Below, in pieces: positions 27,544-50,792 of a stretch of DNA of 64,000 nt. Within the stretch, counting starts at the first letter, position 1, and each line of letters opens with the position of its first letter. A program made the translations under genes and the position numbers. The notes below the pieces were generated by a model. The model did no database searches, was not told where the DNA came from, and was given only the letters and a program-made list of their open reading frames with translations. The stretch is from Fennellomyces sp. T-0311 (Eukaryota; Mucoromycota; Mucoromycetes; Mucorales; Lichtheimiaceae). Location: the NCBI GenBank assembly GCA_025266875.1, contig JALLLT010000036.1, positions 390,025 through 454,024 on the forward strand, written 5' to 3'.

Positions 27544-27954
27544 TCAGAGAGACTGTTGCTGTGGAAAGGGAAATGAATACAGGGTTTATTGGCTTGGCAG
27601 ACACAAGACGCATACCTCATTCATCCAATAATGTGCAAAGTAATGGTGGGATTGCTGTTCTTGTTCTTGTTGAACCAATTGCTGCTTGATCAATTGAAAC
27701 AACCGATGCTTTTCGTCTCGCAGTTCCTGCAGTTTGACACAAATATCCGCCTTGGTCAGCCCGGAGACGGTGGGCGGTGGTGCTGGTGGGGGGCTTTTGA
27801 AGGTGTCCATGGGCGGTGAGGGCAGCCCGCTCTTCATGACCGTGGAGGCTTTGCGATGGCGGCGGTTTTGAATGGCCTTGCTGATAAGGTGGTAGTGCGG
27901 TGACCGATCGAAGCTATAGATGGTGGGCTCGTCGTCGTGATGGGGATCGAACAT
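27544..27954 (-). CDS. Small conserved-looking protein, function unknown
   Basis: Two exons, complement of join(27544-27558, 27616-27954), 117 residues. I start at the Met of M-F-D-P-H-H because a polypyrimidine tract and TTCCAG lie just upstream, suggesting a 5' UTR intron; a longer frame from 28086 is otherwise open. The protein has Y-S-F-D-R-S-P-H-Y-H, a basic R-R-H-R-K segment, a Pro-rich stretch (P-P-P-A-P-P-P) and a helix K-L-Q-E-L-R-D-E-K-H-R-L-F-Q-L followed by Gln/Glu-rich sequence. The helix looks like a conserved fungal coiled-coil motif, but I cannot name the family. It is divergent from the Fanzor gene with about 430 bp between starts. Confidence 0.65.
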
Positions 27955-28381
27955 TGGGCTGGAATAGAAAGAGAAACATGAAAACGAAAGAGCAAAAAAG
28001 AATTTATTTATTCCTCGTTTAGGGAGCTTTTTTTTTTCTGTTAGCGCGGACTGCTGGTTTGCCTCATTCTCTTTACTGCCTGCCATTGGATGCGTTCACC
28101 ACGTTTTCTCTACTGCGCAGTCTCGTGCTGGTCTATACGTACGCAACTCACTCTCTTTCTCTTTCTCCTCAGCGCGTATTCATGCGGACGTCCTGCAAGT
28201 CTTGTCACTGCGCGAATGACTCAAAATACAGCAGAGGCAGGTCACCAACCCGCTTGGATGTCAACGTTAGCCTAACTTAATAAGGAAGTACCAAATAAAA
28301 TACACGCCCAATTGCGTGCTTCCGTCGACTCTCTTTTTTTTCGCGTTTCGCGCTTCATGCTGTACCACATTCTTTCCAACT

Positions 28382-31300
28382 ATGAATCCTACGCTTGTAC
28401 AGAAGATCTTTGGTCATTCGGAAGAGGCACAGATCGAAGCACCACCCATCTCAGCCAACCGGCTCGAGAACGCCTTCAGTGGTCTGCATAACTTTGTTCC
28501 CAGTGCCGAGAACCTGCGCAAAACAACCAAGGCCCTTAAAAGAAGCGGCATGGATATTCTCCAATCCACGTCATTGACACGGTTGCTTTCCGGTGACTCT
28601 GATCATGCCATTTTCTTGCGAACCGCGCCACCATCGTCTACTGTAGCCACGATTACAGGCCATGGCGAGGATAACGTGGACAACGAAGAGGTGACAATGC
28701 CTCGGACAGGTATTACCCGAGACCAGATCATCAGCGAGTTTGAGGCCGGGGTCAGGCGGTTCCATCGTCAAGAGATTGAAGAGGCATTTAAAGGAGCGGA
28801 AAGCAAGCAAAAAGCTGTCAAGATGCTAGAAAAGCTGCACAACAAGCACGACAAAAGAAAAAACGTTCCCCGCATCTATGACGAGATCCAAGCATCCATC
28901 CTAAAACGGCATTCCATGGACGTGGCTCCTAACTGGTTCGCTGACCGGATAAAAGGCTATAAAGATTACGACCGATTTCAATACTTCAAAAGTGAAGGGC
29001 ATCGGCTGCATGAGGAAGTACAGGGTTTCTTGGACTCATGTACCTGGGACGAAGTCATGGGTGTTCAGGACAGCGATCAAGAAGCCAATAGCAACGATGA
29101 CCAAGAAACCGACGACGAAGATAGCCAAGCTGTCAAGAACAAAGACACTTCAATACGCGAAACAGCAACTTTCACAGAAACTATGACGTTTTCATTGCGG
29201 TCTATTTTACGAGGGGAAATCGCCTACGACGGGTTCTTGAACCGATTGGAGAACGAGAAATTGCGCGTCGGTCGATGTATGGCACAGCTTTCGAACGGGG
29301 TATCGGCTTTGACTGATATGATCGCCAGCGGAAGAATGGCCCGACTGTGCGGTACTGTTGTCGACGACACAATTTTCGATATCCAAGCTCTGGTACCTGG
29401 TTTTGATTTCGGACCAGAGGCGAAAACGGCTGTCCATGTGTCACCGATACCACCAGATCTGGACAAGTTGGAAGATGCCCGCGTGTATCAGCTTGAACAT
29501 TTCTCGAACATACTGTCAGGTACGTCATCGCAGTGTACACTTTCCGTTTCCATCAGTTAACGTGTTATGTTTTATGCTTAGGGTGCGTCGGTTCAAGCGT
29601 GAACGAAAAGATGGAATCATTTGTCTTTCATGAATCACGCAACGCGATCGTGGATACTGGTGTTGTCACCAAGCAGGATGACTTGGCCTTCAACGGTGCC
29701 ATGAACAATGCTCTGCGGGAGTTCAAGACTGCTGCACACAACCTCTGGTCGCGGAAGCGCCACGACAGAGATCTCCGAGTCCTAACAACTGCTCTCATTC
29801 GGCTGAGGCTCGCTCCAAATCGCGTCCGTCGTTATCTGGCACGGATTGCAGCTGAGAAGAGAAAAAAGGAGGAGACAGAAACCGGCAATCCCGTGGATCG
29901 GCGTATTAGCATAGCACATGCTAAGAGTAAGGCAGATTACCACCGGAAAGAGCTTGAGAATTCGATTGTTCGCGGAAGAGACGATGCTGTGATCGAAATG
30001 TTATTCGAAAAGCTAAACAACTGGGTCGCGAAGGTAAATCGACAGAATTTTTGTGTGCTCACCTTTCGCACTAACAGAGTTATTCTAAAAGCTTGACAAG
30101 CTGTCTCGTTCATCAAAAGTTCTTAGCAACAAAGAGGAGTCCGAGAAAAAAGAAAAGCACAAACAGGATCGCACTCTTTCTAAGAATCTTGACAAGGACA
30201 ATCCGATTAGTACAAAGACCAACGACGCCGACGAGGAAGAAGTGGAAGAGTCTGCCGTAGATGCCCAAGAAAAAGAAGTTACCACCCGTCAAGTTCGAGC
30301 ACTGGTAGCCATTATCAAACGAGTCCTGTTCACCACCGCCAAGCAGGTGTCTGCCAGAGCAATTCGCGATGCAGCCTACAAGGGGAGCGACCTAACAGAT
30401 AAGCAGTGCCAGACTGCTGCCGAAATCGCCAACGCAGTTCGACCATACTACCACCCCGAACCAGATCAAGACGATAGCGCGGAAGACGACGATGACGACG
30501 AAGCGGATGTTCTGTCAGTGCATGAATGCGTCCCTCTGGCTTATATCACAAACGCTGTCATTAAATTGGTGGTCCCGCAACAGAATATCTGGGCGATCGT
30601 CCCGGACGTCGACTGCAAAGACCACTCCATCCATATTGGAGCAGATGTGCTTTACACATTATTCTCCGGTACTTACACGATCCCATCTACCAACGCCAAG
30701 GTGAAAGTCACCAGCAAACGAGAGGCGGGCCTGCCAGAGAGGCGCGATGACGTTTTCGGTGCCTTTTTCCGCTTACCGAAGATAACACAAGCTCTCAAAA
30801 CCAAGAACCTTGTCTTCAAGCACCGTTTGACCTATGTTAACAAGTATCAGGTCCGGGTGCTTGGTCGTGGTCGCAAGACCGCTGACCCGAACGATAGCAG
30901 CCAAGCAAAGAAAGAAGCAAGCAGCGTCCTGTCTGCCGATCAAAATGAAGAATCTAGCTACTCTGATTCCAGTGCGGAGGAAGTGCTTCCTGTTCGCAAA
31001 GGGAAGGGTAGGGCTGTGGTGACGCCCTCCACAGCAAAGAACAAGGCTGGTAAGGGAATGGCTGGCAAAGGAAAGGCCAGGAAGGCTCGAAAGCGAGAAA
31101 AGAAGAAGGCAATCAAGGCGGCCGGGCAGAAAAGGCCGCACCCTTCAGCAGCGGAATCTGGGTCGAAAAGGGCTAACATCGACCAAAATCTCAACCAGCA
31201 ACTTCTGGAAGAGAAGGAGAAACAGGTCAAGGAGCTACTGGCCGAATTCACATCGGTACGCAAGAAGTGCAATAAGTACGAGATCGAGCGTGCAGACCTA

Positions 31301-32385
31301 GGTCGTACATTCCGGAGCGGGAAAAAGAACAAGGGGAAGAAGGATTGGGATCGTGGTGTTTACACGAAGCTATGGGCGGTGCGAAGAACTGTCCGGGAAT
31401 TTGAAAAGGACATCTCATTGAAGCAAAGGAAGTTGGCGGATTTGCGTGCCGAGCTGTTTCGGATGCAAGCGTTAAAATCGAACAAAACAGTTCGGCCTCA
31501 AGAAACAATAGAACAGGTAGAGCGCTTGTATCAAAGGGCCGTTATATGTATGCTTATCACTGTGTTTGTAGAAACGTATCCGAAAGACGATCATTGACAG
31601 CTTTGGCAGCCAGAAACCGCTGGGTATCATTGGGATCGATCCAGGGATAGTTGTCACGGCAACCGCGGTTACCACCACCTTTGACGCCGTGATGAGCGTT
31701 GTGCGAAGGTACACCTCACCACCATCACCTGAGCAGCAACCGCCGCAACAGACAACACGCCCACCCAAAGCGAAAAAATATACATCATCAATAAAAAAGG
31801 CTGCGACCTTCGAAACAAAGCATGCCAAGCGACGCGAACGCGACAAGGAAAACGACGACGGCAACAGGAGGAATAAAGAGTCAAGGACGAGGGAGATCCG
31901 TCACTCTATCCTGCATCGAAAGCTTGCAACATCTTGGCGCGTTCAGCAATCGATAGCAACACCGGCTTTCTATGGCGCATATCGTGCAGTCAACAGTCGC
32001 ATCAAGAAGCATGCTAGAGGCGCGAACGCAAAACTGAGACAGGCTCTCGAGTCATGCAAGCAAGATACCGTCATCGTCACCAACGAATATCGCTCATCTA
32101 ATGACATGCCCTGAATGCCATGCACCGACAAAACTGCAGAAGTACCGAGTAGATGGAAATCTCAAGGCAGCTAACGGTGCCATCAGGTGCACGAATCCGG
32201 ACTGTCCTCTCCACCATGCGAATACTTTCAACCGTGATGCAGCAGCAGCATTCAACATCGCTGTCAGTAGCCTTTCGAAAGCTGTATCTCACAACAATTT
32301 ACCCATCCCACCCTTCTCCCGCTCCCACGACCAAACCTTCCAACTCGCTGCCTCCATGGAGCGATTGACGGAACACCAGCGCTAG
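28382..32385 (+). CDS. Fanzor-type (eukaryotic TnpB-like) RNA-guided nuclease, with apparent +1 frameshift
   Basis: Four exons: 28382-29519, 29582-30033, 30092-31516 and 31572-32385. The first three sum to 1005 codons. The C-terminal part carries the TnpB/Fanzor signature. A RuvC-I strand G-I-I-G-I-D-P-G-I-V-V-T has its Asp near residue 1028. The helical region that follows ends in T-N-E-Y-R-S-S (Glu near residue 1177). A zinc finger (C-P-E-C, then C-T-N-P-D-C) and RuvC-III N-R-D-A-A-A-A-F-N-I complete it. In published Fanzor analyses the RuvC-II acidic residue is often moved to a Glu just before the zinc finger, which fits the E-Y-R-S-S position. Exon 3 holds a Lys-rich linker, likely nuclear targeting, and a coiled coil. 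The zinc finger and RuvC-III lie one frame off: an extra A at 32100 separates T-N-E-Y-R-S-S from M-T-C-P-E-C. This could be a sequence error, a real disabling mutation or recoding. The N-terminal half is long and unassigned; no other transposase ORF is adjacent. Confidence 0.85.
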
Positions 32386-32645
32386 GTGCTTTTTGTCTCC
32401 CCCGTGACGGTGGATTTAAAGTAGTATAGAACGTCTGATTTTTCTAAACCCAGTTCAAAAGCTGTCAAAGTAGCTGAGTTTCCCAGCAATGGATACACTC
32501 TCTGTCGAGCTATTTATTTCCACCCGCCATCGAGAACTATGGAATAAAAAAAAAGCCTGCCATCACGGACGCCCCACGACGAATCGCTTGGTGCCCCTAC
32601 TAAACACGCTTGTGAGCTGCCCAGTTAAAAAAATGGGTATTTTTT
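32386..32645. other. Short convergent gap downstream of Fanzor
   Basis: A 260-bp gap between the Fanzor stop and the CSN7 stop. Guide RNAs of Fanzor and TnpB loci often start at or overlap the 3' end of the nuclease ORF, so this is where one would look for it. No structure or terminal repeat is obvious by eye. It ends in A/T runs (about 32620-32655), likely polyadenylation regions of both genes. Confidence 0.35.
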
Positions 32646-33616
32646 TTAATTCTTTAACCTCTTCTTGGCTCTGCCTGTACGCTCACTCGTAGGATCATGC
32701 GCGCCTTGATCTCTCGACCGCATCACGCCCGCCGAATCTGATTCATCCGTATCCATTTTGCTCGACGACTTGCTTCGAATCTGACGACGCACACGCTCCA
32801 CGCGCTTTTCGTAATCCTCCTTTTCCGCCTGGTTGTTTGCAATCATCTCGTGTGCTGCCCGAATGCGGTTGTCGATCGCCTCCAGTACCGTCTTTGTGTT
32901 GCTCGACCATGTCTTTAATGCCTCCACCGTTTCCTCCAATTGCTCCGGTCGTACGTCGCGTCCCATGGTGTATTCCACTTGCAGCTGCTGTTGTCGCTGA
33001 TCCAGTTTGCCCACAAGAATCCCTTGGTAAAACGCATCAATGATCAGATCTTCCAGCGCGCGTACGTTGGGGATATCGAGGTATTCTTGCAGCAATGGGT
33101 ATGGCAGTGTCTAAAGCTTTGGATCAGTACGTTTATCGTTGCCTTTTTATCATCCTTGCTTGGTTTTACCCGGCTCGTTTCAGACATGGTGACGATGGAA
33201 AGGTGTTTCAGTTTGGTACGTTGTGTATCGTTAAGCGCAGGCAAGTTACTTTGCTCAGCTATCGTATCCAATATCAGGAATCCCTTTAAGCTTTCATAAA
33301 GAAAAACGTACCAACGTAATCCTTGTAGGTACCGTACATAAAGATCTTTAAAAGAGCATAGTATGGTGCTACTTCAGGTGATTGCGAGGCCTATGGCATT
33401 GTCATGAGGGACCGCAGCTGCTACGCCTTTTTTTTCTTCTTTTTTTACCTCGACGACATTGGGAGATTCGGCTAGTTCTGAAAACACGTAAATGCCAGGC
33501 GTAGCAAGTGCATCGACAATAAGCTTCGAGTTGGCAACGCCTTTGACCGATTTTGATAGTAGCAGGAAGGTCTGCAATTTATGGCTGGTTGACAGTGTTA
33601 GATTCGACTCGTTCAT
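32646..33616 (-). CDS. CSN7: COP9 signalosome subunit 7 (PCI domain)
   Basis: Four exons, complement of join(32646-33110, 33170-33258, 33312-33390, 33449-33616), 266 residues in frame. Exon 1 encodes L-L-S-K-S-V-K-G and A-T-P-G-I-Y-V-F-S-E-L-A-E-S-P-N-V, and exon 2 Y-Y-A-L-L-K-I-F-M-Y-G-T-Y. Exon 3 encodes L-P-A-L-N-D-T-Q and L-K-H-L-S-I-V-T, exon 4 R-A-L-E-D-L-I-I-D-A-F-Y, G-K-L-D-Q-R and M-G-R-D-V-R. This is the order and spacing of the CSN7 helical repeats and winged-helix PCI domain. The C-terminus is a coiled coil ending in a basic K-K-R-L-K-N nuclear-signal-like tail. CSN7 is a scaffold subunit of the complex that removes NEDD8/Rub1 from cullins. Convergent with Fanzor, upstream of an F-box gene whose class of products works in the same cullin ligases, probably by coincidence. 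Confidence 0.93.
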
Positions 33617-40814: not shown

Positions 40815-43800
40815 GGACCTCTATACGAAAGAAAATAAGGCTGGGACCTTTTCGAATTTAGGTGGCGACTGGCATAAAATTGTCGTGGCCAGCATAAAGC
40901 CAGCTTCTTCAAAAGACAGATGTAGCTATCTCAGTACTTACGCTGGATAAAGCCAAGTGATCTCACCTTAATTAGATGTGTTGATTCATTTCCCTAGAAG
41001 GCCGATCGTACTAAATACTGGTGGCTCGGCTTGTTCATATAACTTGCTGAATGTCCAGCGCTTTCGAAATTTTAGTTACCCAGTGTACAGATAATATCAG
41101 TGCATCTTGAATATGGTATGTGGGAAGAGCATTGACCTAGTACTGATGAAGCTGTAAACCATACATAACCAGTATTTTTTTTTTCATGCCAGCGTTCTAC
41201 TCTAATATGGATTAAGCAGATATTTCGGATTGATGAAAAAAAATACCCATTTTTGCTACGCAAGTCGTAAATTTGTTTCAGAAACTGATGGACAGATACA
41301 AATTTGTATAGCTAAATACATCTGGAAGGACTTGATGGTCATTCGGTATGAGACCGTATATGTATTATAGCACTTGCTTCTCTCTAGGGAGCATGATTTC
41401 GTAAAGTTAATACATTATCCACACCGCTCACTCCTGGCAAGCCACCCTCGCCTTCCTCCGCTTGACAACCGTGGCTACTCAAAAAAAAGCACGAGAAGCG
41501 CCGAGAGAAAGAACGCAAGAAGTGTATGGGCCTCGTTAACTTGATAGCGGGGGTAAAATAAATGTTCAATAGTTTTCCAGATGTGATCCTTGGCTACATG
41601 TTTTTTTTTTCAGATATTTGAATTCGTTGCATCTTGCAACGTATAGTACTGTTGATGGGATTAGCAGAATGCTGATAGCTAGAAATACAATACTAAGCCG
41701 TGATGCATCAGTGTCTTTCATTACATATGAAAGTGGCGTGAAAATGGCTAAAACGGTTCGACTACTAGTTATACTCTGATTCTCAGCAAGTCGCAAAGTA
41801 GTTCACCGTTGCTCATCGTTTTTCATGTTATCTACATGTAGGTAATGATCGTAGTTTAGATAGGATTTCTAGTTCGGCTGCTGGTATTCGTTGACTTTTC
41901 ATCATGCAAAAACCAGTATAAAATATTCTCATGTGTATCATACGCAGATCGTTTGACCGAGGCTGAGCAAGGTAATAAGTTACAAGGCTTTTTGATGGAC
42001 CTCAAAGTCAAATTCGAGTACCACCGAGTCATACGATACAACGCATCAAATAGTATGGCAACATACAGCGTATGCTTTCTTCGACTGTCAACCTAACCCT
42101 TTCCCCGCTTAAGTCCATTTATTCCTCGCCCTTCATTCATCCATTTTAGATTGTACTGATTTAATACTATATTGCTAGTATGTGGAATATTGGATTCTTT
42201 TTATATCACATTTGATGGACAAAAATGATTAGGCCTAGTTAAATGTGTAACACAATGCAAGGTTTAATTTTTACATTATGTATATCGTAGTAATCTGTTG
42301 TATTGAATTAGCGTAAGTGCATCATATGGTTTAATTGCTATCCTTTATCACTGCTGGAAATGCAAATAGGCAGCTAAGGTTGCTTGTATTGATGGTGGTA
42401 ACTCTCTACTGGGTCCATACGTACATGGTTCCACAGACTAGGTATAAAGTTTTACCGGCGCCGAAACAGAATTTGACCCAGGAAATAGATAGAAGAAACG
42501 GTGTTTGTCCACAATGCTCTTCTGGAAACTCAGAAAAAGACCATCATCTAACTGGAATTGGACAGGATCAAATGTGTCACAGGTAAAGATATGCAATTCA
42601 CTTGGTACGTGTACAAAGTAGCTCAGCCTCGAACTCTCATTGACCGTGTGAAGTAGTTGTTCATATAAACTTGGCCACGTACTTTTGCTAAAACTCCATT
42701 CCTCTCATTGTGAACTTTCCTCTTTACTTCCTTATCCGACAAAATGTACTTGTTACGGTTTCCCAATGTTTTTCCTGACGACAGCTACCCAAGGGTGTAT
42801 ATTTCCATTGGCTGGTCACATGTCGAAGAATATTTAGTTTCTAAATCACTGAAGTATACCATTAATGAAGACGAGGATGTCAGTGTCTTTTGCACTTGGA
42901 GTTAATACGTAGATTTCAAAGAAGAATTCGAAAAAGACATTGTCAAGGATACGGCTGAGCGTTAATGTACATTTTAACCTGCGAGTGCAAGTGTTTTGTA
43001 ATATTACGAAGCTATCGCAGCCTTACCCATGATTTTTTATCCTCACCAATTTGCTTCCTATCCTTTGTATAACTTCGTTCTATATTTATCTCATTATATT
43101 GATATCAATTCTATTATCATGAATAATAAAAGGATTCATCGAGTATGCTTCCTTCGCATTTACTCTTAGGTTGCTGCTATTTTTTCTACCTAACTAAGTA
43201 TTGTGATACCCACTTTGCGCACATCCTAGACTTTATTCAAAGTCACTGGTATGTGGTGTACTACGTAGGATCCAACCGTCACCGGTGCATCTGCTCCAAT
43301 CTGTACGTTCTAAAACTCATTGTGTTCTACGTGAAGTACATTACTTTAACACCCCCAACCTATGTTAGAGTGGGGTAATGATATTTTTTGGGTCCAGGTC
43401 ATCTGGCATTCGATGTACGGAAACTAGTTGATTATAATATACGAGATATCAGCAGGCAGTATTGCAAGGAAACCCATCCTCGTGTTGATATGAGCTTTAG
43501 ACGTCTCGCCTTTCCTTGCAGCATACAATACTTATCAATTAAAGCGCAAAATGATGAAAAGATTGACTCATCAGTAACTGATGGTTGAGCTTTGAAGTTG
43601 TTGAAAGCCCATGGTGGCGATTGGAATGTAGCCTTGACACAAGTCAGCGAGGCGTCGATCTCAAAGATAACGGGGCCAGTGAGAAGTGCAAAAGAAATAA
43701 TCTGAACAGAATCAGTCGACTCAGGGTCGGGTACAACTGGAAAAACTTTCAGTGGCTCTATGACGGATATTGGAATGCTGAAAACAGTGCAAAGGATATA

Positions 43801-44070
43801 GCTTGAGAAGCCTCCCACTATGATCTCCTACAATGAGCTATGTTCATCAGACGATTTTTGACACAGCCGAGATTCTCTTAATAGACAAGTGCCCATAGAG
43901 ATGAACCGTTTGACGATGACGAACCGGCGCTAGATGAAGCCTTACAAGGCTAACCATCGACGCTCATAGGCAATCACACGTAATGTGGTGCATCATTAGT
44001 CAAACACCTTTTTCCTTTTCAGCTTTATGTCCTCACAGCTTCTTTATCTTATATCAATCTTTTATTCATA
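40815..44070. other. Long AT-rich spacer, no gene recognised
   Basis: Open frames are short. A minus-strand frame at 43432-43818 (128 codons) and a small plus-strand frame at 42335-42586, which contains one C-P-Q-C pair, have no recognisable family. Splicing could not be established. Confidence 0.4.
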
Positions 44071-44074
44071 CAAG

Positions 44075-44470
44075 CATGTCGTTTTCCCAGTAGGGATTTT
44101 TCAGACGTGGCATCAGCTCTCTTCACTATATATATATTTGTACTGCAAGTTAGCTACCACAACATATAGGGACAAGCCAACTAGCCTTCCAAATAAAATC
44201 TGTACTTTTTTTCAGCTAATGGAGAAGAGTTCTCGGGAAGGAGTGAATTCACATCTGTGCCGTCTGGGAAGAAGGATAAGGTATGCCGTGAGCTTTACTG
44301 GATGATGTGGTTAGGTATAGTTGAAAAAGTATAAATTTTATTTGGAAGACTTTTTGACCTGTTCCAATAGGTATATGGTCGCTTCCTTGCGGTACAAATG
44401 TACAGATATAAAAGGATATCTGGTGCCATGTCTGAAAAAACCCCTTACGGGGAAAAAGGCAGGCCGATAT
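44075..44470. repeat. Foldback element: two inverted copies of a dispersed repeat
   Basis: The segment 44320-44470 (GTTGAAAAAGT... to ...AAAAAGGCAGGCC) is matched in reverse complement by 44075-44217 (TTTCCCAGTAGGGATTTTTC ... ending TTTTTTTCAGC), with about 100 bp between. Solo relatives lie at 21944-22090 and 37754-37920. The arrangement resembles a foldback or MITE-like element of about 395 bp. Identity between arms is moderate, so it is not recent. A plus-strand frame (44321-44539) runs through the right arm and is probably fortuitous. Confidence 0.62.
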
Positions 44471-46099
44471 CGAAATGTCGCGAAGAGTTATAGAACTAGA
44501 GAGAAGAAAAACAGTGTAGGTATAATATCAATAATGTAAACGTGGGTGCCACCCTAAGTGTGGTGCTGATGGTCCACCTTGAAGAGCTTCTTCCGGTGCC
44601 GGTTTGTGGTTAGGTATAAGTAAGGAACTCTGGCGCATATTGGACTTAAGCGAAGAGAGCGAAAGGGAAAGGAATGGTTATACAGGTTAAGTATCAGGTC
44701 TACCCACTGATTTTCCGTCGCTTACCCACAGCATTGTTGCAGGTCGGGCGGAATATGTGTACAATAACACTTGGTGTATCTCCATCGTGGCAATCACTCA
44801 GCGTACATACCGATGGCAACAGTCAAAGGGATTTATCGGAAGGCTGGTTTTGAAAGTTGGAGCATATAAGCCGTGCTGTTATTTCTTGATGCGTTCGCCT
44901 GGATGTCCATGCCATATATGTTTTGCTTATTTTGTGCCGTATTAAATGTCGTGTCGAAACTGCAAAAAGTGGTTCTTGTTAAACTTGAAACGACAACATT
45001 TGTGCTCAACCATTGTGACACAATTCCTTGAAGCAAGGGAAAACTAGTCGCGCTGCACTTTATTTTCTTAAGCAGACACAAATTAAAGCCTGAGAACACA
45101 TAGCTGTGAATGCATAACATCGAGAAAGCACCGAGTACTTGGATAGATATTAAGAGACGCTCATGTGACATATTGGCACAATATACGTGCACGCGTTTGA
45201 ACGTTCCAGCGGTCTTGTAATGATAAAACTGATTTATTTTGACCATGAATTGAAGAGAAAGGCGCGATGCAGCCTAAGAATATAAGTCTTTGCGATGATG
45301 TGCGTAAAAGATAAGGCAGTAATAACACGGGGAGGTATTTATACAGGTGGCTACAATAACCAGCACCCGAAATTGGGCTAAACAGAAATCTCGATGGTGC
45401 GACCTGCCTTATATATCGGAACGAATGTTCTGGCAATTCATCAACTCCCGGGGGAGGGGGGTTGGAAAATGAGCGAAATTTTAATGAGAGAAAGAGAGGA
45501 AAAAAAGTGCAAACTGTGTAAGTTGAAAAATGATGTACGGGTTCTGCATTGCAAAGAAAAGCGATCCCGGAAGGTGCTATTCCGCCAAATCGACTTTTTC
45601 AGCAAGCGCGACCATAGAAATATCCTAAGTCCTTGCTCATCGGTTGGCATGACCTATATACAGAGAGTACGATATCTCGTATAGCGCAGTATCATACCGC
45701 AACATTTTGCGGATTAGGGAAGCTTCTAGACCATTGTCAATGCAAACATACGTGGATCTTCACTTGGAGCGACAAAGGAAGCAATTGGTTACCAATACGG
45801 TTACGCAACCACGCGGCAAACGCAAAGGAACGGCACTTTATCGTTTATAGACGACAGAAGCATAATGTGCGGTGAAAAGAAGCTTTTATTAAGATTGACT
45901 ATCGACTTTAACGCAGTGTACAGTATTGCCAAAAAGTAAGTTTGCTATTTATAAAAATCAATGTTGCTATCGCTTCAAAATTAAACCCACGTGAAGTTGA
46001 TCTTGCGACCAGAACAGCTCGCATGCTTAGAAATCAACACTGGCACTGGGCACTATATAAAAAAGTCGTCATAACAATCTCCGTGCCACGTTTTCTCTT
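44471..46099. other. Spacer, no gene recognised
   Basis: Only short open frames, none with a recognisable motif. A G-run lies at about 45450-45462. Confidence 0.35.
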
Positions 46100-47450
46100 T
46101 CACTAAACCATTAAAATTTATAACATGCGTACACAAAATTTTGCATTTCTTTTCGAAGACGGACAGGGGAATATTGTCGATGAGGCCGGCATCCCTGAGT
46201 CCATGTAATATGTTGTTGACGAAGAACATTTTTCAGTTGAAACGGTTGCCTCGCGTACCAACTATATGGAAAATCTTCCAAACTTAGCTTCAGAGTCTTT
46301 TCGACAGCGAGTTCGTCGTCATCGAATGCAGATAGATAGGCCAAGGGATGAAGGAGTTTATATGTGGTAAGTAACTGAAAAACGAGATTATACTCCATAT
46401 GCTGTCAAGGATAAGGAGCGATTCTTTCTGAAAAAGATATCGAAATGCTTGAGTGCATATGATGTAGCCAAATAATTGGGCATCGGTATCCGTAATGGCT
46501 AGCCGTAGGTCAGAAAGTACGCTGGACGAGGGGACAGTTTTTTTGAGTTTCTCAAAAAGCCAAGTCGCAGACAAATTCTGGCAGAAGAGCACCAGAGAGT
46601 TGTCGAAGTTTTCGTCGACGAAGATGCACATTGTACTGCTGTTGAAGTTGTCGAGCACTTACAGGAAAAGTTCTGTGACTTTCAAGTTCCTTGTACTGCA
46701 GTTCACCGTTTTATGACTACAACGTGTACTCTTTCGCTAAGCAAGCAGACTTCCACTCTGAGGAAAGAAATTCCCCAGCGAAGGTCAAGGAACGTTATAA
46801 GTGGGTTACCTAGCCAATGGAAAAAAACCGACATGGATCATGAGACAAACTGGGTATTCCTTGATGAATCTGCCTTTCATATCAGCTTGAGACGCTCTAA
46901 GGGTTGCTTTAAAAGAGGTACTCGTGCAATTGTCAAGAGACCTAAACAACGGCGGAAACAACGACCACATTAGGCGCCATTTCTTCTTCAGGCGTGGCCA
47001 ATGTTAGTGTGACAGTTCCAAAGGCAACCAAGAGGCAGAAGACTAACGATGATGCGTATATAAGTACCTGTGCCATAACAGGTCACTACTTCAGTTCCTT
47101 GAAAGCGACAATGGATGAGATCGACAGGCATGAGAAGCATAAGGACTACTGTACCGGCATGGTAATGCACCCGTTCAGATAAACAGAGATATAGAAAAGT
47201 ACATCAAGTGGCGAGGTTACCGATGTGTCTATTTACCGGCATACTCTGGTGAACTTAATCCAATTGAGAACTTCTGGTCAGTGGCAAAAAGTCATGTTAA
47301 GCATGACCGGCTTTTGACACAGGAAACATTAATAACTAGAATTAAGCAACGGTGCCTCATAGTGAAGCCAGGGGATTACGAGGGCTTTACTAGGCACTTA
47401 CCGGAAGTTTGGGGGAAGTGTCGAAACAGGGAATTGATCTAACATGCATA
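46100..47450 (+). mobile_element. Degenerate Tc1/mariner transposon (DDE_3 transposase relic)
   Basis: Pieces of one transposase lie in order on the plus strand but in shifting frames. An N-terminal HTH-like part at about 46560-46720 includes I-L-A-E-E-H-Q-R-V-V-E and C-D-F-Q-V-P-C-T-A-V-H-R-F-M. Then T-N-W-V-F-L-D-E-S-A-F-H (46850-46880) carries the first catalytic Asp, followed by K-G-T-R-A-I-V and G-V-A-N-V-S-V-T-V. The block 47183-47440 has Y-L-P-A-Y-S-G-E-L-N-P-I-E-N-F-W with the catalytic Glu, ending K-C-R-N-R-E-L-I. The second Asp, normally in M-D-N-A-P, is replaced by M-V-M-H-P near 47165. At least four frame breaks are needed. Terminal repeats were not identified. A dead member of the Mucoromycota IS630/Tc1 group. 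Confidence 0.8.
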
Positions 47451-48131
47451 TCGGTCATTTCCCAAAGTAAGTACATAAAAAAGTAGGAAAACAGAAAAAA
47501 ACAAAACCAAAAAAAAGGTGATTAGGTAAGTGACAGCCATATGTTAGGTAAGCAGCAGGTTGCCAAGCTTTTGCCAGTATTAATTTCTAAGTATGCAAGC
47601 TGTTCTGGCCACAAAACCAATTTCACATGGGTTGAATTTTCAACCTATGGCGACATTGACTTTTATGATTAGCTACATCACTGTTTGGCAATACTGTACT
47701 CCTTAGTTCATCTTACTTTTTGGTACGTGGCTCGTTAATCTTCATGCAGTATGTAACGTTTTCTGGTGTGTCGCTCGTCTCGAATTGGTTTTTCAGGAGG
47801 AAAGGTATTTTAAAGCGTTCCAGTGCTGAATATACACTTGCATATGGCTTTTATAAGTATGGTACTCTTATATCCTTTGAGCAAAAAAAAAATTACTCGT
47901 ACAGTTTGGTGCGTGTGTGTTCTCAAAAAGGAACAGGAGTTACGCAAAAAGAGTTGCTAAGCTGTCTAGGAATTTTGGTGCGTCTGTAGCAATCGCCGCC
48001 CTTTAAATCAGATTGCACGACTTAAATATTATCATTTCAAGTCTTCCAAAGCGCAGAGATGGCGGATACCCGTAAGCGATTACAGAGGTTTGACAACAAA
48101 TTAGGTGATGCATTTCTACTTTTGAACTCCC

Positions 48132-48160
48132 TGTCCGGTGTCCGGTGTCCGGTGTCCGGT
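48132..48160. repeat. Heptamer tandem repeat (TGTCCGG)x4
   Basis: Four exact head-to-tail copies of TGTCCGG. Confidence 0.9.
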
Positions 48161-48455
48161 CGAGGTTGAGAATCAGCGAATTTTCCAGTGATGACTGCTT
48201 TCTGAACATTCCGCTCTTGTTAGTTGCCCAGCAGCAGTTCCAAATATTCACTTTCAACGACGATGCAATGTCTTCAACTTGTGCGTTAAGCTTGATACTG
48301 GGTTTTTATCAACTGAGCCACGCCTCTTGTTATCGACTCTCTCTTGCCAGTTGAAAAATGTAGGTCTTTAATTTAAAATGTTGTTTGAAGTTTTGAATGC
48401 CGATTGCGGAATATTATAGGGTTCCTTGGACCCTCACCATGGCTGTTGCCCATTC

Positions 48456-48865
48456 AGTATGCTGCTTTTTGCCTGCGGTCGCCGGGTGTGCTGAGCCTTT
48501 TTCAAGCCTTGGTACGTCTGCCGTAATGCCAGCCGGACAGTTTGTTGAATATTTGGCTGATGGTTTCTCCACTGACCAAACCGAACTGGAAGCCACGATT
48601 CGACCTTGTAAAAAGGAGGGCACTAAGTATGTTTGTATTGGCTGATTGGACCAACCGGTTACTAGGATTTCCCTTCCAGTATGCTGCTTTTTGCCTGCGG
48701 TCGCCGGGTGTGCTGAGCCTTTTTCAAGCCTTGGTACGTCTGCCGTAATGCCAGCCGGACAGTTTGTTGAATATTTGGCTGATGGTTTCTCCACTGACCA
48801 AACCGAACTGGAAGCCACGATTCGACCTTGTAAAGGAGGGCTCTAAGTATGTTTGTACTGGTTGG
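48456..48865. repeat. Tandem duplication, 222-bp period
   Basis: The segment from 48456 (AGTATGCTGCTTTTTGCCTG...) to about 48641 recurs from 48678 to about 48863 with nearly identical sequence. One copy has AAAAAGGAGGGCAC where the other has AAAGGAGGGCTC. Both encode the same plus-strand peptide segment (M-P-A-G-Q-F-V-E-Y-L-A-D-G-F), and the frame stays open through most of the repeat, but no start, splice or family can be given. Confidence 0.8.
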
Positions 48866-49365
48866 ATAGCTCAGTTTGCTCAGCCCATGAGAGTTTTTTT
48901 TTCCGATGGATCTCCAAAGGTAAGCGTACAATCCATTTCTTTCGGCGTATCTATGCCTGTTGACACGAATGCTTTTTCTAGCTACATTTTGCAATTTGTA
49001 TGGCAAACTATGGTTGCTGAGCCCAAAGTGGAAGCATGAAAAGAAGAGAGAAGGGCGAAGGCGACAAGAAAAGGATGACTAAAAGAGAAACTAATATGGG
49101 CCGCCGCTTTTTGTTTCATAATTGTAGCCCAAGATTATAGTACTTTATTAAAATGGCATGGCTAATGTGAATGGGTATCTAACTGATAGCATTCAAGCTA
49201 TAGCTATTGACTTTCACGAGGAGTATTCTTGTGAGCTTTACCATGCCAAGCGTGCCTAGAGACGTCCGCTTTGAAAAAAAAAAACCTTGGTTTTAAACAA
49301 AAGGAAGGTGGGAACTGCCCAGATCGGATATATTTGCTTGTTGAGTGAGGCAAGATGCAATTCGT

Positions 49366-50792
49366 TCAGATATCCTCTCGACGTTCGGCCGTGCGCATCG
49401 GAATCCCTGCTGATCTGCGCTTCCATGATGCTGGTGCTCCGTGTGATGGTTCCGAAGAAAGCGCGATCTCGTCAATACGTTTGATGGTTGGCTGTACAAT
49501 GTTTTTCAATTGGACAAAACATTCCACAATTGCAGGTAATGAGTGCACGTCTTCGGGAGTTTCTAGTAAGCGAACAGATTCGTGGTGTAACATGACATAT
49601 ACGCCTTCGCATTTTAGTTGCATGGAGTATGTTTTTACGGCGAACCCTTCGACTAGAATCCCACACGCACATGGTGCTTCGACACCGAAATCGATCAAGG
49701 CGTCAATGATATCCTTCATTTCCTTGCCCAATTTTACAAAATCAGATTGCAGCTGATTTCTTGACGATTTTGCTGGTGGTTTAACTTCTACAACGAGTAG
49801 GTCGTACTTGGCTCCGGTGGTCGTGGTATGCGACCCGATATAATCGGCCATCAGTCCATGCGCGTCGCCTGCAACGTGGGACTCGCCAAGACGCATTGAA
49901 ATGGAATGCCTGGCAAAAACTTCTTGTGTGATGGGAGTGATGTGTTGCTCTATGAACGTGGCCTCCAGAACGCAATTGCTTTCCCATACATTGAATTTCT
50001 TGACCATTGTTGTGATGATAGCCGAGAACATGACCATATCTTCGTGTTCAATGTCGTATTCGTTTTCGTCGTCACTGCACCTAATCTGGCTCAGAATCCC
50101 GACACTTTATCGACTAAAAAAATTGGCGGATTACCGAGAGGCTTTCGATCCGCCGCCTATCCGCCGCCTATCCGGCACCTATCCGTCATGCTGCGGCGCG
50201 TAACCAGTTCGTACGTACGCGAGTCTGGATCACCATGTGCGATCCCACGCAAGTACGCCTTCTTCAGATCGCCGTATGAGTTAGCCCAGTTGATGGCTGT
50301 GCGATCACTGGCGGTCAACTGAGCACTCGCCACAGTATATGTTCCTGAGAAAGATGGTCGGCGATGGTTGGCGTTGGGCAACTGACGTTCTTCGCTAACT
50401 GGAGAAGCTGCAGAAGCAATTGACTGCGAGTGCTGAGCATCAACCATGGGAGCTGCAGCCACTTCATCGCCTTGGCTTACGGGAAAAGTTGGAGGTGTGG
50501 AAGCCAGGGGTGCGTCATCGTCACCGAAATCCAACTCAAAATCGTCGTAATCCGTCGATTCATGACGTTGCGTCTCGGTCTCCTCGAAGTTGCGATGTTC
50601 ATCAACGATTGCCGAGTGCGTCGAATCGTTGTTGCTACGAGTTGGTAGTGCGCCATCACGGGAAGCAGAGCTCACAATTGTAATGCGAGGTGCTTTTGAG
50701 GGCGACAGCTCCACTTCTTCACCATCCTCAAAGAAAGAGCCGCTGGTAGCGATGCAGCGTTTGCGTGCTTTTCTAACATATATGTCGCTCAT
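49366..50792 (-). CDS. PD-(D/E)XK-like family protein, copy 2
   Basis: Two exons, complement of join(49366-50074, 50179-50792), 440 residues in frame; donor GTGCCG, acceptor GTGCAG. Exon 1 encodes M-S-D-I-Y-V-R-K-A-R-K-R, then a long low-complexity Ser/Asp/Glu-rich region (with D-F-E-L-D-F-G-D-D-D), and near its end W-A-N-S-Y-G-D-L-K-K-A-Y. Exon 2 encodes the conserved domain. L-M-A-D-Y-I-G is followed by Y-D-L-L-V-V-E-V-K-P-P and S-D-F-V-K-L-G-K-E-M, a D...E-x-K arrangement typical of PD-(D/E)XK nucleases. G-I-L-V-E-G and E-G-V-Y-V-M follow. Unlike copy 1 the E-x-K is intact. Exon 1 sits inside a 903-bp unit bounded by perfect inverted repeats, and nearly all of the intron is the left repeat arm. 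Exon 2 alone (49366-50037) could be a separate shorter gene. Confidence 0.65.

Follow-up and report, generated by a model that had tools for sequence, protein, structure and literature searches.

The 64-kb stretch analyzed here (hereafter, the window) comes from the genome of Fennellomyces sp. T-0311 (Mucorales, Lichtheimiaceae), and positions given without a contig label refer to it. The window carries a 5′-truncated copy of a multicopy mobile element, designated family A, with one gene for a predicted RuvC nuclease of the Fanzor type (Table 1). The exons of this copy join to 1276 codons, stop included; this is close to the about 1275 codons that the initial annotation had given for a continuous frame, but the gene contains three GT-AG introns and is not intron-less. 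Window exon 1 is collinear with a Circinella umbellata protein (P0001; 39% identity). Comparison with 16 sibling copies placed the borders of the element: the 5′ fragments of all 16 start to match at 28252, and on the 3′ side the match ends at 32443 or at most 3 nt past it in 15 of them and in one partial copy, with 32429 for C13. In copies C100 and C103, the intron at 30034..30091 has gone together with adjoining exon sequence in one imprecise deletion. The codons of the four zinc-finger cysteines begin at 32107, 32116, 32188, and 32203.

Table 1. Coordinates of the family A copy and its features in the window
Feature	Position	Strand	Basis
Family A Fanzor element, window copy, 5′-truncated	28252..32443	+	Alignment to sibling copies
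Exon 1 of window copy (intact-copy exons 1 and 2 fused by internal deletion)	28382..29519	+	Open frame
In-frame internal deletion junction (82 codons and intact-copy intron 1), between short direct repeats	28625..28633	+	Sibling comparison
Intron, 62 nt, GT-AG	29520..29581	+	GTACGT donor and TAG acceptor in window and all 15 lifted siblings
Coding exon	29582..30033	+	Open frame, sibling comparison
Intron, 58 nt, GT-AG	30034..30091	+	Kept in lifted siblings other than C100 and C103
Coding exon, 475 amino acids, no Pfam match	30092..31516	+	Sibling comparison
Intron, 55 nt, GT-AG	31517..31571	+	GT-AG borders, sibling comparison
Last exon, RuvC-I to RuvC-III and zinc finger	31572..32385	+	Frame broken between 32087 and 32107, window copy only
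RuvC-I catalytic Asp (GIDPG), putative	31638..31640	+	Sequence
Rearranged RuvC-II Glu (Ealt), NEYRSS, putative	32085..32087	+	Sequence; spacing rule tried on intact copy
C4 zinc finger (CPEC ... CTNPDC)	32107..32205	+	Sequence; PF07282
RuvC-III Asp (NRD), putative	32236..32238	+	Sequence
Predicted 3′ hairpin CC.CCG-TGA-CGG.GG	32399..32413	+	Computed fold
Subterminal TATAGAACGTCT, 11/12 identical to 3′ repeat of C120 Helentron	32425..32436	+	Sibling ends, C120 comparison
Element 3′ terminus GATTTTT	32437..32443	+	Sibling alignment

Searches of the same genome returned 46 matches with the last exon as query and 52 with the preceding exon, partial and more distant ones counted, and many were >90% identical. 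At least 17 near-complete copies, the window copy included, were recognized, of which the 16 siblings were compared with the window copy in detail. A complete family A element is ∼4.78 kb long and has one gene, and its ends are sharp and common to the copies. An uninterrupted five-exon frame of 1357 amino acids (aa) is retained in three of the 17 (C139, C98, and C106), while C111 and C90 have one internal stop each. Thus, the family, rather than the window copy, is the object of interest. In C13, ∼140 bp within the last exon are inverted, and the 5′ region of C90 contains an insertion of ∼390 nt, accompanied by a 6-bp duplication, at the window equivalent of 28366-28371.

The initial annotation had suggested that the gene may be an orphan or a domesticated copy. 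In support of this, the gene is flanked by open reading frames at 27586-28086 and 32646-33095 (both on the minus strand, the latter CSN7-like), and a transposase was not detected within the element, as had been noted earlier. Against it stand the at least 17 near-complete copies and a window copy that is broken in three ways. Domestication was therefore rejected on copy number and decay (a single-copy orthologue elsewhere was not searched for), and we regard it as hardly credible. The resemblance of the CSN7-like frame to COP9 signalosome subunit 7 is weak (E value, 6.9e-5; below cut-off), and scans of the window with Rfam and ARAGORN detected no RNA family and no tRNA, respectively.

Judged from its sequence, the window copy is decayed and non-functional. 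It lacks the 5′ ∼285 nt that the 16 siblings share beyond 28252, and 82 codons at ∼28625 are missing together with intron 1, as is also the case in C100, C124, and C114. The 82-codon segment is present in 13 of the 17 copies; C150a and C150b have a ∼50-nt shorter form. The stretch of 50 residues that is best conserved in the protein (101-150, with 35 positions identical in Circinella) falls within this deletion. The frame break reported earlier between the RuvC core and the zinc finger lies where it had been placed, between the Glu (ending at 32087) and the first Cys (32107), and is private to this copy: the last exon has the standard length in 9 of the 16 siblings, and the other 7 have indels elsewhere in it. 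An assembly error in a copy whose frame is otherwise open would fit a private break and the remaining window exons, which are open; we consider this possible but rather doubtful. The copy would be defective whether or not the break is real, because the 82-codon deletion, with its best conserved residues, and the 5′ truncation remain.

The four copies that share the deletion (window, C100, C124, and C114) are 0.6 to 1.6% divergent in the nearest stretches, versus 5 to 9% to other copies. This near-identity is confined to a ∼600-bp haplotype around the deletion, and the four copies do not group in the tree, in which C100 has a position of weak support (C13 and C90 were excluded from the diversity and tree runs). 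Since copies that do not group share the haplotype, the tract has probably moved between them by conversion or template switching. In addition, C124 and C114 have near-identical 5′ flanks, which contain the end of a family B copy (see below), while their 3′ flanks diverge 3 nt past the element; rolling-circle copying with read-through, or else a segmental duplication, may lie behind this pattern.

Fanzors are characterized by a rearranged Glu that lies six residues ahead of the first CxxC and 120 to 160 residues after DPG (PMC10711439). GIDPG (RuvC-I) occurs in the window copy and in the intact copy, and intact C139 reads DPG-x146-E-x6-CxxC...C4...RD, which bears out the rearranged RuvC-II Glu of the initial annotation (ExxxxxxCxxC); the corresponding spacing in a second Fanzor family of this genome, family B, is 140. 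The published motif D-X(125,275)-[TS][TS]XX-[C4 finger]-X(5,50)-RD (PMC3627910) was matched in its finger/RD part by all three proteins tested, and the parts in the window copy lie in two frames. Circinella P0001 has Lys where the rearranged Glu is expected and fails the spacing rule; this homologue may represent an inactive copy. Chance does not explain the motif set, given the 46 and 52 genome matches and the intact siblings that carry the motifs in one frame.

Profile searches likewise agreed with the Fanzor gene that had been proposed. PF07282 (OrfB_Zn_ribbon/Cas12f1-like_TNB) exceeded its curated cut-off in 5 of the 17 genomic matches, but the window piece alone remained below it (E value, 0.19). 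All four members of profile A1 matched PF07282 at E values of ≤0.1, the first of them below its cut-off; among annotated relatives, P0001, P0002, and P0004 were below cut-off and P0003 gave no match. SpuFz1 (PDB 8gkh) was the top PDB match with a four-sequence profile (E value, 7.1e-4) and with a ten-sequence profile (2.0e-4), compared with 0.75 in a single-sequence search; the other PDB matches of the four-sequence profile up to an E value of 10 look coiled-coil or unrelated. The family A protein is by its sequence a Fanzor, most likely of the Fanzor1 rather than the Fanzor2 group, as judged from its motif pattern, its match to SpuFz1, and the type of element.

At 1357 aa, the intact protein is about twice the usual size: most Fz1 proteins have 600 to 700 aa (PMC11423790), and Fanzor1 lengths reach ∼800 aa (PMC10711439). 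This falls outside the typical, not the defining, length of Fanzor1. The large unassigned N-terminal part described in the initial annotation was confirmed, as no known domain was matched; Pfam gave no convincing domain in the N-terminal exons, NCBIfam gave nothing useful, and the isolated 475-aa exon had no match in the protein set, in a search whose length window left out full-length relatives. The Circinella homologue P0001 (1415 aa) aligns over the full length, with 575 of 1316 aligned positions identical. Among the three intact copies, the ratio of nonsynonymous to synonymous substitutions (dN/dS) is 0.29 to 0.36. The pooled polymorphism ratio (pN/pS), calculated from copies whose exon had the standard length, is 0.43 for exon 4 (11 copies), 0.38 for exon 5 (9 copies), and 0.36 for the N-terminal exon 2 (8 copies). 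The family A protein, its N-terminal half included, is under purifying selection. Among the matches found, relatives came from Circinella, Zychaea, and Fennellomyces only, in searches restricted by a length window and shared words; viral contigs scanned with profile A1 contained no relative (56 pattern matches, none confirmed).

A search of the genome with the 5′-end pattern gave 43 matches, versus 7 for a control pattern, and led to an element whose 5′ end is at C120:49443, with a Helitron Rep match 2.3 kb downstream in the same orientation. This element (C120:∼42700-49443) carries Rep (PF14214; 1.2e-23), a PIF1 helicase (4.4e-29), and Exo_endo_phos (2.3e-7) by Pfam, and is, by this domain makeup, a fungal Helentron. 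The putative fungal Helitrons found in a survey that added 102 Pezizomycotina proteomes are reported to have no endonuclease domain (PMC5148889), which makes this Mucorales element noteworthy. The alignment between the 5′ ends of family A and the C120 element scores 65, against a maximum of 37 among 2000 shuffles; when the first 12 nt are left out, it scores 46 (shuffle best, 29), and the likeness reaches ∼80 nt. Just past the stop codon of the C120 element lies TATAGAACGCCT, which matches the reverse complement of the element's 5′ AGGCGTTCTATA at 12/12 positions and is followed by a hairpin and then AATTTTT. The 3′ end of family A is TATAGAACGTCTGATTTTT; here, agreement with C120 is limited to the 12-nt repeat (11/12) and the T-run. 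The family's own 5′ AGGCGTTCTA and 3′ TATAGAACGTCT show a short imperfect pairing. No companion transposase had been reported in the initial annotation, and none was detected inside the element; the C120 Helentron is a plausible candidate helper elsewhere in the genome. At C172:46058, a similar 5′ end is followed ∼2 kb downstream by a decayed Rep match with two stops.

Family B (C123, C137, and C172) begins with the same first ∼74 nt as family A. Its 3′ hairpin differs in sequence and has the same TGA loop in the computed fold, and P0002 is identical, letter for letter, to the end of the protein read from C123. Family B also has internally deleted derivatives of ∼2.03 kb, which start with the same ∼74 nt and retain both ends together with the end that codes for the zinc finger; three of these derivatives were read.

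Insertion sites were compared at 16 loci, comprising 13 family A copies and 3 family B derivatives, with C124 and C114 sharing one 5′ flank; C13, C90, C150b, and the window copy were omitted (one end missing or disrupted). The 5′ junctions were placed by a script via CTTTTT. In 14 of the 16 loci, C occupies each of two places before CTTTTT, so that insertion follows (C)CCTTTTT. Bases that follow this T-run are repeated after the 3′ T-run of the element in C79 (9 bases), C139 (8), C98 (6), and C102 (2), and the duplication beyond the T-run is 1 base in two loci and 0 in ten. The matching bases total 27, versus a permutation mean of 4.2 and maximum of 26, and none of 20000 re-pairings reached this total. 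Because host bases stand between the T-run and the element start in C79, C139, and C98, the T-run with its C's is read as target and not as part of the element.

Taken together, we consider it likely that family A is a nonautonomous Helitron2/Helentron-type rolling-circle transposon whose one gene encodes a giant Fanzor1-type RuvC nuclease. Variable-length duplications, a 5′-truncated window copy, and a T-run at the 3′ end would also be expected of copying through RNA, as by long interspersed nuclear elements (LINEs). The copies, the three intact ones included, have introns at the same places, however, and there is no poly-A tail at the coding-strand 3′ end. LINE-type copying was therefore rejected, since introns are retained in the copies, and it appears extremely improbable.

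Several results weigh against a rolling-circle element with a Fanzor gene. The inverted repeat of family A is not significant alone (240 of 1000 shuffles reached the best score), and the best inverted match within the terminal 200 nt lies away from the AGGCGTTCTA/TATAGAACGTCT pair. The 3′ hairpin of family A is upstream of the repeat, whereas it is downstream in C120 and Helitron2; the Fusarium FoHeli3-5 group is also described without a 3′ hairpin (PMC5148889). A clear duplication of 6 to 9 bases was present in only 3 of the 16 loci and none in 10, no empty site was seen, and neither a T-run nor a duplication was found at the window copy's own 5′ boundary. The low diversity at the 3′ end is unremarkable, since 253 of 4708 windows were equally low, and is thus weak evidence of a guide RNA. 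With regard to the protein, the SpuFz1 alignment covers only the C-terminal ∼75 residues, with the Glu, the finger, and RD; GtFz1 and PpFz1 were not among the PDB matches up to an E value of 10, their presence in the searched PDB copy being unchecked; and AlphaFold2 on P0002 (ten sequences) yielded a poor model with no usable RuvC core (mean predicted local distance difference test score, 52.3; predicted template modeling score, 0.30).

We also considered that a different DNA transposase, of a MuDR-, Crypton-, or Harbinger-like kind, moves this Fanzor1 element and that its Helentron-like ends are coincidental or captured. Such associations occur in Fanzor1 elements of Mucor, Rhizopus, and Phycomyces (PMC3627910), the family's own ends have a weak inverted repeat only, and most copies lack a duplication beyond the T-run. 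On the other hand, the duplication length is not constant (9, 8, 6, 2, 1, or 0), and a long terminal inverted repeat (TIR) was sought in the terminal 200 nt and not found, so that the long TIR and constant 9-bp duplication of the MuDR type are both lacking. Moreover, the likeness to the Helentron 5′ end extends past the first 12 nt to ∼80 nt, and the overall pattern is that of the Helitron2 Fanzor1 elements (PMC3627910). Movement by another transposase therefore seems decidedly unlikely, and the Helitron2/Helentron-type assignment is preferred.

Fanzor1 genes in algal Helitron2 elements, and in MuDR-like and unclassified elements of Mucorales, are known already (PMC3627910). In Chlamydomonas reinhardtii, the nonautonomous Helitron2 elements CRe-1, CRe-2, and CRe-3 resemble family A in their intron-containing Fanzor1 gene, ends shared with a Helitron2-type element, insertion at a T-run, variable-length duplications in some copies, and 5′-truncated copies with intact 3′ ends; there, insertion follows TTTT, and copies with the consensus 5′ end have no duplication while others have duplications of variable length (PMC3627910). 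In contrast, the shared ends are longer in the alga (200 and 50 bp; PMC3627910), and family A differs in the order of its 3′ hairpin, the 1357-aa protein, and a partner with an endonuclease domain. SPu-1 of Spizellomyces punctatus, the element of SpuFz1, is likewise a multicopy element with one gene, whose product has the Ealt Glu, a C4 finger with CTNPxC, and RD; its protein has 638 aa in a single open frame, and the element has 33-bp TIRs and TA duplications (PMC10432273, PMC3627910), unlike family A with its 1357 aa, five exons, and Helentron-like ends. The Mucorales elements MCi-2, MCi-5, ROr-4, PBl-3, and MCi-4 are similar in carrying Fanzor1, often without a transposase of their own (PMC3627910). 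They have either MuDR-like TIRs with 9-bp duplications or duplications of 11 to 12 bp (ATAATT type) or of 6 bp, and none is assigned to Helitron2 in section 12 of that paper (PMC3627910).

Among rolling-circle elements, Helentrons and the HINEs/DINE-1 group have subterminal inverted repeats and T-runs at their boundaries, and their nonautonomous partners share ends with elements encoding Rep, helicase, and endonuclease, as in family A; HINEs/DINE-1 are non-coding, whereas family A carries a Fanzor gene as cargo (PMC4067079). In the part of the open-licence literature that was covered, we found no fungal Fanzor borne by a Helitron2 or Helentron and no Fanzor this large.

How such an element might work can be outlined from what is published. 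RNA-guided cleavage has been reported for SpuFz1 (PMC10432273), and the guide RNAs of viral Fanzor1 proteins run ∼15 nt past the element (PMC10711439). In family A, the Rep-helicase of the Helentron would recognize the shared ends and copy the element in trans into T-rich (C)CCTTTTT sites. The Fanzor protein would bind RNA from the element 3′ end, the last bases of which would come from the 3′ flank, and would cut a target beside a transposon-adjacent motif (TAM); repair of the cut from another copy could then promote retention or spread of the element. The long N-terminal half may be an additional region, particular to this group of fungi, for recognition or for binding a partner. A bolder version, which we hold to be unlikely, is that (C)CCTTTTT is also the TAM and that the conserved N-terminal part of ∼680 residues is a new functional module linking RNA-guided cleavage with rolling-circle spread or with repair from a sister copy. 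If so, copy-to-copy repair of this kind would have left its mark in the deletion haplotype that copies from different parts of the tree share.

New genome-editing tools build on Fanzors, the RNA-guided nucleases of eukaryotes. This one fungal genome combines related copies, a minority of them intact, with deletion derivatives, a second Fanzor family, and a Helentron with similar ends, and the family A protein is about twice as large as most Fanzor1 proteins and has a conserved N-terminal half with no known domain match. Such a combination makes it possible to test whether Fanzors are carried in trans by rolling-circle transposons and whether the motif at which the element inserts is the target-adjacent motif of its nuclease.

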